DNA of 64,000 bases from Sedimentibacter sp. SX930. Its GTDB lineage: Bacteria; Bacillota; Bacilli; Lactobacillales; Aerococcaceae. The translations under genes and the position numbers were made by a program. Positions 5,709 through 15,712 of this stretch are shown piece by piece. The notes under the pieces are model-generated. The model was given only the letters and a program-made list of their open reading frames with translations. It was not told where the DNA came from and ran no database searches. The stretch lies in contig MUZD01000004.1 in NCBI GenBank assembly GCA_002155105.1, positions 62,001 through 126,000 of the forward strand. Direction: 5' to 3'. The stretch's first letter is position 1; the number at the start of each line of letters is the position of its first letter.

Positions 5709-5732
5709 ATTACAGATAGTAAACACATTCAT

Positions 5733-6022
5733 TGATGAAGAAAGTACTTCGAGCAATGTTCACAGCGAGCGGGGAAGGTGGAAGCCCGTAATGGAGCGAA
5801 GAAGGAAACGCACTTCAGAGAAAATGACTTGAAGACAAACGTGATCCCCCTGTTCATCGGACATCTGGGAAAGGACGTTTGTGAGTAGCGTCATTCGGTT
5901 TAGCCCCGTTAACGGTTCAAAAGGATAAAATAATCAGAGCCCATCTGTATTGCTTTATCGAATTAGAGTGGTACCACGGATGTTCGTCTCTATTTTGCCA
6001 GGGCAGAATAGGGGCTTTTTTT
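5733..6022 (+). promoter_or_regulatory. T-box riboswitch controlling argS
   Basis: The T-box core AGAGTGGTACCACGG lies at 5965-5979. Stem I begins near 5735 with TGAAG, pairing with CTTCA near 5813, and contains the AGTA bulge element (GAAAGTAC). A specifier candidate in the GAAA-CGC-AC context is CGC at 5809-5811, an arginine codon, which fits the downstream argS. An intrinsic terminator (TCTATTTTGCC paired with GGCAGAATAGG, then seven T) spans about 5988-6022. Uncharged tRNA-Arg would stabilise the antiterminator and allow argS expression. Confidence 0.93.
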
Positions 6023-6115
6023 ATCGTTATCGCAGATTTGCGACACCTACGAGAAAGAAAATGATCCGTTCATCATGTGGATAGGCAGAGGCATATAATA
6101 AAGGAGCAGAAAAAT

Positions 6116-7813
6116 ATGGATTATAAAAAGATTGTTGCTGAAGAGATTCAAAAGCTTGTACCGGAGCATTTAACCTATGACCAAGTGTACCAATTGCTTG
6201 AAGTACCTAAATATACTGAGCACGGGGACGTCGCGTTTCCGGCATTCGCACTAGCGAAAGCACTGCGCAAAGCACCGCAAGCCATCGCTGGAGATCTGGC
6301 GGCACAACTGAACCATCCTTACATTGAAAAGGTTGAAGCGGTAGGCCCGTACGTCAATCTTTTCCTTGAAAAAGCAGCGGTAACGAATGCGGTCCTGCAT
6401 GAAATTGCTGCCGAGAAGCAAGCGTTCGGAACAGCCGATATCGGAAAAGGCGGCAACGTGCCGATCGATATGTCCTCGCCGAATATCGCGAAACCGATCT
6501 CGATGGGTCATTTGCGCTCTACGGTAATCGGAAATTCATTGGCTAACATCATGAAGAAAGTCGGCTACAACCCTATCAAAATCAACCACTTGGGCGACTG
6601 GGGCACGCAATTCGGTAAGCTGATCGTGGCCTACAAATTGTGGGGCAACGAAGAAAAAGTCAAAGCTGAACCGATCAATGAATTGTTGACTCTGTATGTC
6701 CGTTTCCACACGGAAGCAGAATCAGACGATACCATGAACGACGAAGCTCGCGCTTGGTTCAAGAAATTGGAAGATGGCGATGCAGAAGCTTTGCATCTTT
6801 GGGAATGGTTCCGTTCCGAATCGCTGCAGGAATTCATGAAAATCTACGATATGTTGGGGATCACTTTTGATTCCTTCAACGGTGAAGCTTTCTACAACGA
6901 CAAGATGGATGAAGTCGTTGAACTGCTTGACAAAGCCGGCATCCTGACCCAAGATCGCGGTGCAACCATCGTTGATTTGGAAAAATACAACTTGAACCCG
7001 GCCTTGATCAAGAAATCGGACGGCGCAACGCTGTACATCACCCGCGACTTGGCTGCGGCGATCTACCGCAAACGCAACTATGATTTTGCGATGTCCCTGT
7101 ATGCAGTCGGTAATGAACAAAGCAACCACTTCAAACAACTGAAAGCTGTTTTGAAAGAGCTCGGCTACGATTGGGCAGAAAACATGCATCATATCCCGTT
7201 CGGTCTGATCACGCAAGGCGGCAAGAAACTGTCGACGCGTCAAGGGAAAGTCATCCTGCTTGAGGAAGTCCTGAACGAAGCGACTGAACTTTCCTTGAAA
7301 CAGATCAACGAGAAGAATCCGACATTGGAAGACAAGGAAGCAGTCGCCAAAGCAGTCGGCGTCGGTGCTGTCGTATTCCATGACCTGAAAAATGACCGTC
7401 TGAACAATTTCGACTTCGATTTGGAGGAAGTCGTGCAATTCGAAGGCGAAACAGGCCCTTATGTCCAATATACAAATGCACGCGGCTTGAGCATCCTGCG
7501 CAAAGCGGCAGTCGAACTGGATACTACCGAAGCGGCTGATCTTGGTTTGGATGACGCTTACGCATGGGAAGTCGTAAAACTGTTGAACAGCTTCCCTGAA
7601 ATCATCCAGCAAGCTTACGAAAAATTCGAGCCATCCGTGATCGCGAAATACACGATCCACTTGTCCCAAGCATTCAATAAATACTACGGCAACACAAAAG
7701 TGCTGGTAGAAGACGACAAACGCAACGCCCGTCTGGCATTAGTCCAATCCGTAGCTACAGTCCTGCAAGAAGGCCTAAGACTCCTAGGAGTCCAATCCCC
7801 AGAAAAAATGTAG
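6116..7813 (+). CDS. argS: Arginyl-tRNA synthetase
   Basis: The 565-residue class I synthetase attaches arginine to tRNA-Arg. [17 protein letters not shown] holds the HIGH-type signature, here as [15 protein letters not shown] replaces the KMSK loop, as is common in ArgRS. The C-terminal anticodon-binding DALR domain has [13 protein letters not shown]. The chosen ATG follows AAGGAG at a standard distance; an upstream in-frame GTG or TTG has no ribosome site. Expression is set by the upstream T-box. Confidence 0.97.
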
Positions 7814-8109: not shown

Positions 8110-9660
8110 GTGGATATTTACAGGAAGCTCATGGCTGATGAGCGCATCGTTTACCTTGCGAAAGGAACACTTGTAGGATTATCAGCCGGCTTCATTGTCA
8201 GCCTTTTCAGATTAGGCATTGAATTTATACTGGAAACCGTAGTTGCAAGCTATCATTATATGCAAGAACAGCCAATCTGGCTCATCCCTTGGGTAATTTT
8301 TTCAGTGGCAGCCGCGCTCATCGTAGGAAAACTTGTCAAAAGCGAACCCAACATCAAGGGCAGCGGCATTCCGCAAGTGGAAGGCCAAGTACAAGGAATC
8401 ATCAGCCTCAACTGGTGGCCCGTGCTCTGGAAAAAATTCATCGGAGGTCTGCTGGCGATCGGATCGGGTCTTTTCTTAGGAAGAGAGGGTCCCTCCATCC
8501 AATTGGGATCCGCAGTGGGACAAGGCATCAGCAGTCTCACAAAAGGGGATGACGTGGAAGAAAAAATCCTGCTTTCGAGCGGCGCCGGCGCCGGTTTGGC
8601 GGCAGCTTTCAACGCACCCTTGGCAGGCTTGATGTTTGTCCTCGAGGAGGTCCATCACAACTTTTCCCCCTTGCTTGCCATCACTACCTTTTCCTCCGCA
8701 CTTGTGGCAAATTTCGTGTCCTTGAACATCTTCGGTTTGACTCCTGCGTTGGACATCGGCATGATGAACACGATCCCGATCGCCTACTACGGATTGGTTA
8801 TTGGCTTGGGCGTCTTTCTGGGTTTGAATGGCTGGCTCTACACCAAGGTGGTCTTGTCTTTGCCTAAATTGTACGGCAAGCTGCCGTTCATCCCGGCTCG
8901 GTATAACGCAATATTGCCATTCATTCTGGTCATCCCGATCGGCTATTTTCTTCCCCAGGTCATCGGAGGAGGCAGCGAGCTGATCCTGCATTTGAGCAAT
9001 TGGCAACTCTCCTTGGGGATGTTGCTCGGCTTATGGGTTTTGCGCTTTGTATTTTCGATGGTTTCCTATGGGGCGAATGTTCCCGGCGGTATTTTTCTGC
9101 CGATCTTATCCTTGGGGGCAATATTGGGCGCCATCTATGGGAAAGCAACGTTGTCTCTGTTTTCTTTCGATCCGCAATATTTGCCGCATTTTATCATTTT
9201 TGCGATGGCGGGTTATTTCACAGCCATCGGAAAAGCACCCTTGACCGCCATCATTTTGGTGACGGAGATGGTCGGCGGGATGAATCAGTTGATGCCGCTT
9301 GCCATTTGTTCATTCAGCGCCTTTGTCACGGCCGATCTGTTGGGCGTGGATCCCATCTATGAGAGTCTTCTGGAAAGACTTATCGCTTCGCATGACAGCA
9401 AGCGCAACGGGAAAAAATATTTGTTTGATCTACCGGTCAGAGCCGAAAGCCATTTTTCCGGCAAAGAGATCCGTGATGTCCGATGGCCTGAGGATGTGTT
9501 GGTGACATCGATCAGAAGAGGCCAACAGAATGTTGTGGCAACCGGGAAAACAATTATGCAGACGGGAGATGTGTTGCATGTTTTGACCGATCTGGGCCTG
9601 GCCAAAACCGTTCAGGAAGAACTGAAGCAATTGGAAAAGAGGCGACTTTTCGACACTTGA
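8110..9660 (+). CDS. ClC-type H+/Cl- antiporter with C-terminal RCK_C domain
   Basis: The 516-residue membrane protein has the three ClC selectivity signatures: GSGIP (84-88), GREGP (124-128, with gating Glu126) and a GGIFLP motif after residue 320. Glu180 in FVLEEVH corresponds to the proton-pathway glutamate of E. coli ClcA, so coupled H+/Cl- exchange is more likely than a channel. Residues of about 430-510 form a TrkA-C/RCK_C-like domain, probably a ligand-binding regulatory module. The GSGIP form argues against a fluoride-specific CLC-F. The start is GTG, with AAGAAGGG upstream. Confidence 0.93.
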   Translation: MDIYRKLMADERIVYLAKGTLVGLSAGFIVSLFRLGIEFILETVVASYHYMQEQPIWLIPWVIFSVAAALIVGKLVKSEPNIKGSGIPQVEGQVQGIISLNWWPVLWKKFIGGLLAIGSGLFLGREGPSIQLGSAVGQGISSLTKGDDVEEKILLSSGAGAGLAAAFNAPLAGLMFVLEEVHHNFSPLLAITTFSSALVANFVSLNIFGLTPALDIGMMNTIPIAYYGLVIGLGVFLGLNGWLYTKVVLSLPKLYGKLPFIPARYNAILPFILVIPIGYFLPQVIGGGSELILHLSNWQLSLGMLLGLWVLRFVFSMVSYGANVPGGIFLPILSLGAILGAIYGKATLSLFSFDPQYLPHFIIFAMAGYFTAIGKAPLTAIILVTEMVGGMNQLMPLAICSFSAFVTADLLGVDPIYESLLERLIASHDSKRNGKKYLFDLPVRAESHFSGKEIRDVRWPEDVLVTSIRRGQQNVVATGKTIMQTGDVLHVLTDLGLAKTVQEELKQLEKRRLFDT

Positions 9661-12560: not shown

Positions 12561-13307
12561 ATGGAAACATTGGATTTGATCATCGATTTTCATAAAAGCA
12601 ACCCGCGCCAAGGTCCCGGCAGCCAACAAAGCACCATCAAAGCGCTGCAGTTTCTGCCGCAATTGACCCCGCAAACGCAACTGCTGGACGTCGGCTGCGG
12701 AACCGGCGCGCAGACGATGGTGCTGAGCGAACAGACGCCAGCCCATATCACAGCAGTCGACAGCAGCAAAGAATTTTTGAGCATACTCAAACACAAAGTC
12801 CTGCAAAAAGGCATCACGAACCGCTTGACTGTCAAGGAAATGGACATGGAGCAGCTGGCTTTCGCTCCGGAATCATTGGACGTCATCTGGGCGGAAGGCG
12901 CCATCTACAACATAGGCTTTTCAAGAGGCATCCGTGAGTGGAGATCATTGCTGAAAAAAGACGGTTACTTGGTTGTTTCGGAAATTTCCTGGCTGACACC
13001 GGAACGTCCGCAGATCGTGGACAAATATTGGACCGAAGTTTACCCGGAAATGGGGACAATCGCTGAAAAGACCGCTCAGATCGAGGAGGCCGGCTACATC
13101 CCGGTGGCGCATTTCGTCCTGCCCGAATCGGACTGGACGAGCCACTACTACCATTATTACGAGGCCAATGAAGCGGCATTCCTGGAGCGGCACAGCCACA
13201 GCGAGGATGCGAAAGCCTTGGTGGAGGAGAACCGCCAGGAAATGAAACATTTCGAAAAATACAGTGCGTACTACAACTATGTTTTCTACATCATGCAGAA
13301 ACGTTGA
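12561..13307 (+). CDS. Class I SAM-dependent methyltransferase
   Basis: The 248-residue protein contains the SAM-binding motif I LLDVGCGTGAQTMVLS (about 40-55), an acidic motif II in ITAVDSSKEF and motif IV MDVIWAEGAIYNIGF-like. The C-terminal half is rich in Tyr, His and Glu. The acceptor is unknown; similar proteins are often labelled small-molecule methyltransferases. The AGGAGGGG ribosome site supports the ATG. Confidence 0.88.
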   Translation: METLDLIIDFHKSNPRQGPGSQQSTIKALQFLPQLTPQTQLLDVGCGTGAQTMVLSEQTPAHITAVDSSKEFLSILKHKVLQKGITNRLTVKEMDMEQLAFAPESLDVIWAEGAIYNIGFSRGIREWRSLLKKDGYLVVSEISWLTPERPQIVDKYWTEVYPEMGTIAEKTAQIEEAGYIPVAHFVLPESDWTSHYYHYYEANEAAFLERHSHSEDAKALVEENRQEMKHFEKYSAYYNYVFYIMQKR

Positions 13308-13320
13308 AAAAACTGGAAAA

Positions 13321-13366
13321 TAGAGGCGCCCGGTCCGTAGGATGGACAGGGCGCCTCTATTTTTTT
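13321..13366. terminator. Bidirectional terminator
   Basis: TAGAGGCGCCC pairs with GGGCGCCTCTA, with a T-run on the plus side and an A-rich run on the other. It can serve both the methyltransferase gene and the convergent antiporter gene. Confidence 0.88.
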
Positions 13367-13393: not shown

Positions 13394-14584
13394 CTACTTC
13401 GTCAGGAATGTCTTATAGGTGCGGTCAATGAAGGTAGCTCCGATCGGCGCGGTCAGGATGATCGCCAAGACGGCGACGCTCAAAATGATGCTACCGGCTT
13501 CGACTTCGGCGGCCAAAGGGATCGAACCGATAGCCGCTTGGACAGTGGCTTTCGGCGTATACGCCATCGCGGAGAAAATGCGTTCTTTTGCATTCAGTTT
13601 TGTGCCTGAAACCGCCAGAAAGACCGCCAACATCCGGAAAACTAATGCTGCGAAGATCAGGGCAACTGCCGCGAAACCGGCGCCACGCAAGGCTGTGATG
13701 TCGACAGCCGATCCTACCAAAACAAATAGGAAGATTTCCGCCGCGGACCAGATTTTGGAGAATTTGTTATTCAGACGTTTGGCCAATTCCGGGCGTCTTT
13801 TCAATAAAGTGGCTCCGACAGCCATGACGCCGAGCAACCCAGAAAAGGGAATGAATTTTGCCAAGGAATCCTCCGCCGTCACCAACAGGAAACTGGCGCT
13901 CAGCACCAGCATGACTTTCATCGTGTCGCGGATGTGGAACGTCCTGAAGAGAAAAACGAGACCCAAGCCGATCAGCAGACCGCCAAGCAGACCCAAGGCA
14001 ATCGAAACTGGAACGGAAAGAAGGGTGATTGCCTTGAACCCGCTGCCGGTGTACATACCCATGAAAGAGGTGAACAGGACGATGACATAGACATCATCTA
14101 CGGATGCGCCAGCCAATATCATCTGCGGAATCCCTTTGGCCTTTCCGTAGCCGCTCTCGATCAGCATGATCATGCGCGGAACAACGACAGCAGGCGAAAC
14201 GGCCCCAAGGACGGCCCCGAGGATAGCGGCCTCCAATAAAGTGATGCCCAACAATTTCGGCGCCAACAGGATGACCGCCAGAATCTCGAAGGTCGCCGGT
14301 AAAAAGGTCATCAGGACAGCAGGACGGCCGATCTTTTTGAGATCGCCCAAGTCCACCGTCAGACCGGCGCGCACCAGAATGACGATCAAGGCAATCTTCC
14401 GGATATCCGCGGAAATGGCCAGTAATTCCGGCGCCATCAGATCCATTGCATATGGACCCAACAGGATACCGGTCAAAATCAAGCCCAACAATCCTGGCAG
14501 TTGGAGCCGGGTGAAGAGCGAACTGAGAAGAAAACCTAGGATGAGAATAAGCGCGATACTGTAAATCAAATGCTGCACCTCCAA
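13394..14584 (-). CDS. Cation:proton antiporter (CPA superfamily) under a fluoride-type riboswitch
   Basis: The 396-residue protein has about twelve membrane segments and the Na+/H+-exchanger core: LPGLLGLILTGILLGP near the N-terminus, VSPAVVVPRM and the Asp-Asp pair GASVDDVYVI (Asp163-Asp164), the signature of electrogenic NapA/NhaA-like antiporters. No C-terminal TrkA-N domain is present, so it is not a full KefB/C. The leader between the promoter and the start resembles a fluoride riboswitch, which suggests a role in fluoride stress, probably by balancing protons or cations. AGGTGC/GGAGG precedes the ATG. Confidence 0.9.
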   Translation of the reverse strand: MEVQHLIYSIALILILGFLLSSLFTRLQLPGLLGLILTGILLGPYAMDLMAPELLAISADIRKIALIVILVRAGLTVDLGDLKKIGRPAVLMTFLPATFEILAVILLAPKLLGITLLEAAILGAVLGAVSPAVVVPRMIMLIESGYGKAKGIPQMILAGASVDDVYVIVLFTSFMGMYTGSGFKAITLLSVPVSIALGLLGGLLIGLGLVFLFRTFHIRDTMKVMLVLSASFLLVTAEDSLAKFIPFSGLLGVMAVGATLLKRRPELAKRLNNKFSKIWSAAEIFLFVLVGSAVDITALRGAGFAAVALIFAALVFRMLAVFLAVSGTKLNAKERIFSAMAYTPKATVQAAIGSIPLAAEVEAGSIILSVAVLAIILTAPIGATFIDRTYKTFLTK

Positions 14585-14596
14585 ATTGTTGCCACT

Positions 14597-14695
14597 AAAA
14601 AAAGCCGATGACAGACTGCGCCTATTGCGCAGAAGTCATCAGCTTTGATAAGCGGTTTAAGCGATTTGCTAGGGGAGACATTCATTCCCTTGTTA
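14597..14695 (-). promoter_or_regulatory. Candidate fluoride riboswitch (crcB motif) with expression-platform terminator
   Basis: Read on the minus strand, the leader holds a GGGA...TCCC hairpin around ATGAATGTC, then TTAAACCGCTT, a short GCTT/AAGC stem and GCTGATGACTTCTGC. This order matches the fluoride aptamer (GGNGAUG hairpin, UAAACCGC, GCUGAUG-RCUUCUGC). The hairpin loop GAA(T)GT can pair with ACTTC, as in the aptamer pseudoknot. The 3' half overlaps a terminator (GATGACttCTGCGC with GCGCAGtcTGTCATC, seven T at 14597-14603) just before the ribosome site. An insertion of about 12 nt after the first hairpin departs from the consensus. Confidence 0.72.
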
Positions 14696-14703
14696 TAGAT
14701 AGA

Positions 14704-14732
14704 ATGATAGCATGTTTTCAGGAGGCAGACAA
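14704..14732 (-). promoter_or_regulatory. Promoter of the riboswitch-antiporter unit
   Basis: On the minus strand TTGTCT (14732-14727) and TATCAT (14709-14704) are separated by exactly 17 bp, placing the transcript start just before the riboswitch. Confidence 0.65.
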
Positions 14733-14953
14733 GGGGAATCAGAAATCGCTTCCTTATTTTGGCGCTATTGCCACAGCGAATTACTCCGAGAAGGTGGACC
14801 TTGTCAAAATTGCGATAATTCTCTAAAAATGATAGGATAAAAGTAATCAAATTGCACGATTCAAGGCCGGGAACCAGTGACTGTGGGCTTGTGGAATTTC
14901 CCGTCCGGCCCTTCCGATAAGTTTTTCCATCAGAAAAATATGAGGTGACGTGT

Positions 14954-15712
14954 GTGAACGAAGTGAACAGAGAGAAGATTGTGAGCGAACTGAAAAGCAT
15001 TCCTGCATTGAAAGGCATCGTGGCGTACGGTGGTGGAGACAATATCACGGAATCAGCCATCTTGCTGTATCATGTCGCCGGAGGATTGTCCAACCAAGAG
15101 CTGGAACATGTGGTCCACCGATTGGATGATATCGAGGTGCCAATACATTACAAACTAAGAGAAATCGATTCTGTTGTGCATGCCATTTCTGATTGCCTTG
15201 ACGGTAAGATTACGATCAAGTACGAGAGCGGCCACCCTTTCGGCGTTGTGAACAGCAGCTACGCGGCTGAAATCCATTATGGCCGAATTCTCTGGGAAGC
15301 ACCGGACCAGCTGGTTACGGCATTGAAGGGGAAGGTTTCAGCGCAGGGAGAGTATCCGGAAAGGCTGCGCCAAGCGACGATTGCTTATTTCATGGAGGAG
15401 GCGACACTGGCGCTCGAAAATGGCCATAGTGCAGCTATGCAGGGGGGCATCCATTACGCCAGCGGTAGCTTCTTCCAAGCTGCCTGTTCCTGGGTTCAGG
15501 TCATCCATGCATTGAACCAACAGTTCCTCTTGAGCGAAAAGGGCGGCGTGAAGCGCGCGAACCAGTTGCCGATCAGCCCGGAACAATTCCGCGTGCGCGT
15601 GAACCAAGTTTACCGCTATTTCGCCGCGAACAATCCGACGCTGGCCTATTGCGAAATCGACATGCTTGAGCAGGAGATGGCTGTGTTGGTAAGAACTTAT
15701 GCGGAAGCGTAG
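14954..15712 (+). CDS. Nucleotidyltransferase-like protein of unknown function
   Basis: The protein is about 252 residues. The N-terminal half resembles the nucleotidyltransferase-fold proteins used for stand-alone aminoglycoside-type enzymes, and the C-terminal part is helical (MEEATLALENGHSAAMQGGIHYASGSFFQAACSWVQ-type helices). The usual GS...D-D catalytic pair is not clear: the GGGDNITESAILLY stretch stands where it would be. Function is therefore open. The GTG at 14954 follows GAGGTGA; a GTG nine bases earlier overlaps that site. Confidence 0.6.
   Translation: MNEVNREKIVSELKSIPALKGIVAYGGGDNITESAILLYHVAGGLSNQELEHVVHRLDDIEVPIHYKLREIDSVVHAISDCLDGKITIKYESGHPFGVVNSSYAAEIHYGRILWEAPDQLVTALKGKVSAQGEYPERLRQATIAYFMEEATLALENGHSAAMQGGIHYASGSFFQAACSWVQVIHALNQQFLLSEKGGVKRANQLPISPEQFRVRVNQVYRYFAANNPTLAYCEIDMLEQEMAVLVRTYAEA

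Follow-up and report, generated by a model that had tools for sequence, protein, structure and literature searches.

The window analysed in this study is a stretch of 64,000 nucleotides from the genome of Sedimentibacter sp. SX930. A gene for an antiporter of the CPA superfamily is located on its minus strand (13394..14569). The gene encodes 391 amino acids from a TTG start at 14569, and a ribosome-binding site GGAGG (14578..14582, minus strand) lies 8 nt before this codon; the list of open reading frames (ORFs) places the start at an upstream TTG (14584). A leader with a fluoride riboswitch aptamer and an overlapping terminator precedes the gene. On the other side lies a convergent methyltransferase gene (12561-13307, plus strand), separated from the antiporter by a probable bidirectional terminator (13321..13359), a GC-rich inverted repeat with 11-bp arms and flanking A and T runs, which was absent from the list of a simple terminator scan. 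A divergent ORF of 255 aa (14945-15712, plus strand) faces the riboswitch promoter. No Pfam or NCBIfam family matched this ORF at E 0.001, and its single Pfam match (E 0.21) was at chance level. The antiporter looks like a one-gene unit between the divergent ORF and the convergent methyltransferase gene. Elsewhere in the window, a T-box leader (5723-5994, plus strand; 99.5 bits, gathering 93) precedes an ORF (6077-7813) that presumably encodes an arginyl-tRNA synthetase.

The aptamer (14623..14698, minus strand) matched the Rfam family RF01734 in cmscan with 41.9 bits (gathering 34, E 3.2e-8), and model positions 1-64 were complete in the match from 14698 to 14623. This covariance-model search was the check proposed in the preliminary description, which had assigned the leader to the fluoride type. 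That assignment is supported by the covariance model and by covariation, by the overlap with the terminator, and by a gene linkage that is conserved; the leader elements sit where the description had placed them. By its sequence the aptamer is an RF01734 member, an ordinary switch correctly identified at first reading. Another riboswitch class at the leader was rejected, as RF01734 alone reached its cut-off here. No second RF01734 match was detected at E 0.001 elsewhere in the genome (37 contigs, 98.35% complete). The ClC gene of the window (8110-9660) was also described correctly: it is of the chloride type, with GSGIP and GREGP present and GEVTP absent, and there is no RF01734 match in its vicinity. 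From the riboswitch family we infer that fluoride is the ligand and that it induces the antiporter.

The P1 hairpin is formed by GGGA (14689-14686) and UCCC (14676-14673), and is indicated by the sequence, the cmscan alignment, and covariation. Its loop carries the 5′ strand of the pseudoknot, GAA(u)GU (14683-14678), whose partner ACUUC (14632..14636), found by sequence and covariation, is shared with the 5′ arm of the terminator. The P3 stem pairs GCUU (14653-14650) with AAGC (14645-14642), according to cmscan and covariation. Between P1 and P3, a small extra hairpin pairs AGC (14670-14668) with GCU (14662-14660), according to the minimum free energy fold and covariation. All of these elements are on the minus strand. 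The window shares P1, P3, the pseudoknot, the conserved core, and a terminator on the pseudoknot strand with the crcB motif of the Bacillus cereus type (RF01734). It differs from that type in the extra P1-P3 hairpin, which is common in antiporter-linked members, in a bulged U in the pseudoknot, and in that the controlled gene is not crcB.

Pairing was evaluated in antiporter-linked aptamers. A total of 97 antiporter-linked loci were collected, three of which score below the threshold (L163, 33.3 bits; L165, 30.5 bits; L218, 29.1 bits), and removal of duplicates left 87 distinct aptamers. For the covariation alignment, 45 of these were chosen by hand, excluding members in which the insert is missing or very long; its pair counts cover P1, the pseudoknot, the extra hairpin, and P3. 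In this alignment, 84.4% of cells were paired vs. 75.4% after shuffling, and 14 of 18 pairs showed changes on both sides vs. 8.2 (five of the 14 are in the extra hairpin). The covariation score was 0.296 vs. 0.151 for shuffled alignments, and no shuffle out of 500 attained it. Further pair types (32 vs. 28.8) are a weak measure, since 40 of the 500 shuffles had as many. When the partner strand was shifted by 1 to 3 columns, pairing fell to 35-58%. P3 had 92.1% of cells paired, with covariation in all four pairs. Across all 87 aptamers, 421 of 435 pseudoknot cells were standard; swapping the tails gave 384 on average and at most 393. A one-base bulge, like the bulged U of the window, was scored in 23 of the 87.

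The preliminary description regarded a 12-nt insertion after the first hairpin as an atypical feature, and this point was not borne out. The insertion is the extra covarying hairpin, and it is present in most antiporter-linked relatives. Among the insert-bearing members of the alignment, all five of its pairs vary on both sides and 72.8% of cells are paired. Parsed inserts of at least 9 nt occurred in 68 of the 87 distinct aptamers; the parser clipped some inserts, that of the window included, and the remaining 19 were shorter or unparsed. The mean folding energy of the inserts was −3.7 kcal/mol vs. −1.0 kcal/mol for shuffled letters. The insertion was also considered as a defect, and this was rejected: 63 of the 68 fold with at least three pairs, and the pairs covary. 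The aptamers of 96 antiporter-linked loci were 59 to 117 long; the commonest length, 76, is that of the window copy. Because the small hairpin keeps its pairing while its sequence varies, and 76 is the modal length, the insertion is not atypical.

A probable promoter (14704..14732, minus strand) consists of TTGTCT, a 17-nt spacer, and TATCAT with TG before the −10 element; it scored 9/12 in a consensus scan. The region contained three promoter-like sites vs. 1.7 (sd 1.2) expected by chance, so the scan by itself is weak evidence; the position immediately in front of the aptamer makes the promoter probable. The intrinsic terminator (14597..14643, minus strand) comprises a hairpin from 14643 to 14604 and a U tract from 14603 to 14597, with a predicted energy of −25.4 kcal/mol. 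It lies just before the ribosome-binding site, as had been described from the sequence, and was absent from the list of the simple terminator scan. With its seven U, it overlaps the 3′ strand of P3 and the pseudoknot strand, and the expression platform is exclusive with the pseudoknot, since the terminator takes the pseudoknot strand. By strict criteria, overlapping terminators were found in 86 of 90 distinct antiporter-linked leaders vs. 77 of 900 with shuffled downstream sequence. The four leaders that missed were L019, L102, L208, and L219, and all but L208 passed a looser test. These strict criteria replaced a laxer test that accepted 90 of 90 leaders but also 392 of 900 shuffles.

In the B. 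cereus switch, according to an excerpt of PMC11077080, bound fluoride stops the terminator from displacing the pseudoknot. Given this mechanism, the window copy would therefore be a transcriptional ON switch, a direction suggested by homology. RNA polymerase would transcribe the aptamer first. When fluoride is absent, the terminator arm would invade the pseudoknot strand, and transcription would end before the gene. When Mg-bound fluoride is present, the pseudoknot would hold, and the antiporter would be made.

The gene downstream had been described as a CPA cation/proton antiporter, which holds and can be made more precise. PF00999 (138.5 bits) was its only Pfam match at E 0.001, and within CPA it is most closely SLC9B/NHA2-like. 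The nearest solved relatives by sequence were bison NHA2 (E 1.3e-43) and human NHA2 (4.6e-42), and the next was an archaeal NhaP (2.2e-8). The sequence match starts at residue 131 of NHA2. The predicted structure had a mean pLDDT of 85.7 and a pTM of 0.82. In Foldseek, ranks 1-5 by E-value were NHA2 structures (TM 0.76-0.82, identity 32-33%). Ranked by TM-score, certain chains of archaeal NhaP and SLC9C1 were equal or better (0.84 vs. 0.82), and NHA2 is therefore not distinguished by fold alone.

According to part of a review (PMC9174904), the ion-site residues of bison NHA2 are E214, V243, S244, D277, D278, and R431, which align with E95, V124, S125, D158, D159, and R312 of the window protein. 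In 88 riboswitch-linked antiporters (the 97 loci after removal of duplicates and of fragments up to 350 aa), E95, S125, D158, and R312 were conserved in 100%, D159 in 98%, and V124 in 93%. The same residues were present in 21 NHA2-like antiporters without a riboswitch match. Among 20 other CPA antiporters, the R312 position held lysine in 95%, and there was no conserved glutamate at E95. The window protein thus has the DD motif, the E215/R432 pair (human numbering), and the ion-site serine of SLC9B/NHA proteins. It shares these features with its nearest solved relative SLC9B2/NHA2 (PDB 7b4l, 7p1i); it differs in that it is bacterial, has 391 aa, and stands under a fluoride riboswitch, and its transport is a prediction. 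Assignment to the KefB/KefC or NhaP type was rejected, as the NCBIfam CPA models score far under their cut-offs, and the 109 NHA2-like sequences branch apart from the 20 other CPA antiporters. Nothing in the antiporter sequence suggests an anion site. The protein also lacks the marks of homology to known exporters, namely a PF02537 match or a CLC with GREGV/T and GEVTP. The NHA2 arginine has been linked with electroneutral exchange, and the reverse mutant did not turn electrogenic, in the portion of PMC9174904 that deals with it. Our best guess from these residues is that the antiporter is an electroneutral Na+/H+ exchanger; the exchanged cation would be Na+ (or Li+/K+).

A search of plasmid records returned 353 that match the antiporter at E <=1e-30, of which 11 span at least 80% of its length. 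Among the 20 plasmid records listed, nine are enterobacterial and match just the C-terminal part, residues 207-391, with 57% identity.

Linkage of the riboswitch to the antiporter was followed at several taxonomic levels. The seven named antiporter relatives with 93-96% identity were all Trichococcus, which suggests that the window belongs to this genus. Just upstream of the antiporter, RF01734 scored above gathering in 17 of 20 named relatives, and the other three (L008, L014, L018) had no match even at E 0.1. The L008 leader (2408-2480, Trichococcus palustris) retains a terminator-like hairpin and U tract by eye; judged on this, it is a switch whose aptamer is lost or changed beyond recognition. 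In the genus of the window, 11 genomes were sampled. Ten had the antiporter, nine of these with a riboswitch above the cut-off before it, and one (G373) had the antiporter without a riboswitch. The eleventh genome (G274) had no antiporter. Its 22.3-bit riboswitch hit was rejected as a second architecture, as it is below the cut-off and inside a coding stretch.

In a phylum sample of 398 genomes, 33 other genomes had an antiporter match at E <1e-60. The remaining matches listed were above 1e-25, save one of 1.9e-34 in G603, which is partial (residues 2-205). Of these 33 loci, 29 were scanned; the riboswitch was above the cut-off in 25 and below it in L218 (29.1 bits), and L205, L211, and L216 had no match. 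In the order, a riboswitch match was present in 67 of 93 antiporter genomes and lacking in 26. Fifteen order loci from no-match genomes were rescanned, and none matched even at E 1. Among five further order loci, two were above the cut-off (L164, L166), two below (L163, L165), and one had no match (L167). Contigs from Fusobacteriota and Mycoplasmatota (L019-L021) also carry the riboswitch and the antiporter. At one locus (G369, C1:937902-939072), the antiporter is represented by two matches that differ in reading frame, and the riboswitch match before them exceeds the cut-off.

The gene next to the riboswitch was classified in 110 order loci, 30 returned by the search and 80 picked from the list, a set that favours the family of the window (f1) and is not random. 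The antiporter held this place at 49 loci, CLC-F at 28, and enolase at 12; a further 11 had a short Fluc-like or unclassified ORF there, eight had some other ORF, and two had no gene. Seven of those eight other ORFs appeared by eye to be HAD-like hydrolases directly behind the riboswitch. Enolase is a known fluoride target according to a passage of PMC11139923. The same source, in the part available, places Na+/H+ antiporters as the next commonest riboswitch-linked class after exporters. The linkage type, a fluoride riboswitch before a Na+/H+ antiporter, is already published.

In a tree of 129 antiporters, a single branch separates the 109 NHA2-like sequences from the rest. On this tree, the presence of the riboswitch requires 19 changes (13 forced by well-supported branches), which is below all 500 shuffles. 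The simplest reading of the tree is an old riboswitch-antiporter linkage with repeated loss.

Taken together, we consider with a probability of about 0.85 that a terminating fluoride riboswitch controls an NHA2-like Na+ (or Li+/K+)/H+ exchanger, which most likely shifts the proton balance that drives HF accumulation. The aptamer, pseudoknot, overlapping terminator, gene linkage, and NHA2-like ion site found at sequence level are the basis of this reading. HF enters the cell as a weak acid, and inner fluoride accumulates by the pH difference. The antiporter would protect by altering the proton balance behind this accumulation, alone or beside a fluoride exporter. Electroneutral exchange with Na+ out and H+ in would give a smaller pH difference, and less fluoride would be trapped. 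Exchange in the opposite direction would repair the inner pH and favour fluoride trapping. Proton export alone would lead to a higher inner pH and fluoride accumulation, which counts against this reading, as do the bulged U of this copy, the antiporter loci that have no riboswitch match, and the weak result for further pair types. A stand-alone role, and the lack of the antiporter next to Fluc, would agree with the first direction, and a helper role for CLC-F with the second.

Fluc (CrcB) and CLC-F are proven fluoride exporters. In other Lactobacillales they fill the same riboswitch-controlled slot, and by Pfam family they are not homologous to the antiporter. The same 395 order genomes were searched for the riboswitch, Fluc (PF02537), the antiporter, and CLC-F. 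The antiporter was called at a best E <1e-60, and CLC-F at a best E <=1e-45 with a riboswitch-linked CLC as the query; both thresholds were chosen in this analysis. A single system was found as antiporter only in 69 genomes, CLC-F only in 120, and Fluc only in 159. Combinations were antiporter with CLC-F in 23, Fluc with CLC-F in eight, and all three in one, and 15 genomes had none. Fluc and CLC-F occurred together in nine of 395, matching the published exclusion, for which a section of PMC11139923 gives approximately 3% of strains with both. Fisher p-values for these distributions are not independent tests, because the genomes are related and kinship was ignored.

CLC-F-like genes were present in 24 of the 93 antiporter genomes, that of the window among them. 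The CLC-F gene of the window genome is on another contig, contains GMGLV, GREGV, and GEVTP, and has no riboswitch match; the signature quoted in a 2024 review has GMGLI where this gene has GMGLV (PMC11139923, in part). The antiporter is therefore not the sole candidate defence of this genome. A purely accessory role is a further reading, and we regard it as quite possible, though short of an even chance: the antiporter would repair the pH or sodium balance upset by HF entry or by a proton-importing CLC-F. Fluc imports no protons, which would explain why the antiporter is missing beside it. Operon-like gene orders agree with this role. One riboswitch is followed by the antiporter and then CLC-F in two genomes of family f2 (L148, L150), whose antiporters are 70% identical to that of the window, like those of named Carnobacterium, and the order in L149 is riboswitch, CLC-F, antiporter. 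A comparable arrangement is C. difficile CD0656-7, where, according to an extract of PMC11477304, a fluoride riboswitch precedes a CLC and controls a Na+/H+ or K+/H+ (NhaP-type) antiporter; there the antiporter is in the CLC operon, whereas in the window it stands alone. A passage of the 2024 review also ties riboswitch-associated Na+/H+ antiporters to pH homeostasis (PMC11139923). Against an accessory role, in 69 of the 93 genomes with the antiporter there is neither a CLC-F nor a Fluc that it could help. Nor are the antiporter and CLC-F associated in the family of the window (72 genomes), where 43 had the antiporter only, 13 antiporter with CLC-F, nine Fluc only, four CLC-F only, and three none: CLC-F was present in 13 of 56 genomes with the antiporter vs. 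four of 16 without. Of the 17 genomes with CLC-F in this family, 15 were checked for the CLC-F signature (all but G098 and G293), and 14 had GREGV or GREGS with GEVTP; it was not seen in G258.

Another reading, which we put forward tentatively and hold to be rather doubtful, is that the bacterial NHA2-like clade, mostly riboswitch-marked across Bacillota and found so in the Fusobacteriota and Mycoplasmatota contigs, constitutes an independent third defence against fluoride that substitutes for Fluc and CLC-F. It would act by lowering the fluoride-trapping pH gradient through proton/sodium exchange, by a coupling of sodium or proton flow to the removal of fluoride or, less likely, by transporting fluoride directly. 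The distribution speaks for it. Fluc was present in one of 93 antiporter genomes vs. 167 of 302 others, and the antiporter in 69 of the 84 order genomes that lack Fluc as well as CLC-F. In genus g3, each of seven genomes had exactly one of the three systems. A repeated Fluc search of ten antiporter-only genomes, with E values up to 10 allowed, gave weak matches in four, the best with 15.8 bits (cut-off 32.9), and two positive controls scored 100 and 105 bits. The riboswitch and antiporter on Fusobacteriota and Mycoplasmatota contigs would also agree with a stand-alone defence, as a part of the 2024 review (PMC11139923) names groups such as these among those lacking exporters. Several points weigh against it: CLC-F-like genes accompany the antiporter in 24 of 93 genomes, the window genome included; 15 of 395 genomes manage with none of the three systems; and the p-values ignore kinship. 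Direct fluoride transport has no support in the sequence, because the conserved residues of the ion site belong to the cation-exchanger type. In the window genome, a member of such a third defence would work beside CLC-F. The literature searched, with subscription journals mostly outside it, contained no test of such an antiporter and no report of the exclusion with Fluc.

It is very improbable that the aptamer arose by chance or has decayed and that the gene depends on some other means of expression: some relatives have no recognisable aptamer, but the window has a full-length match with an intact core, terminator, and covariation, and the riboswitch is above the cut-off in nine of the ten antiporter genomes of its genus.

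Returning to the control of an NHA2-like exchanger by a terminating fluoride riboswitch, the bacterium probably makes the exchanger when fluoride enters the cell, since the riboswitch stands in front of its gene. The switch itself is textbook, and the interest lies in the class of riboswitch-linked antiporters and its distribution. In many Lactobacillales in which no other system was found, the antiporter may take the place of an exporter. If it protects a strain without Fluc and CLC-F, this would be a third bacterial route of fluoride resistance, by a protein related to human NHA2.
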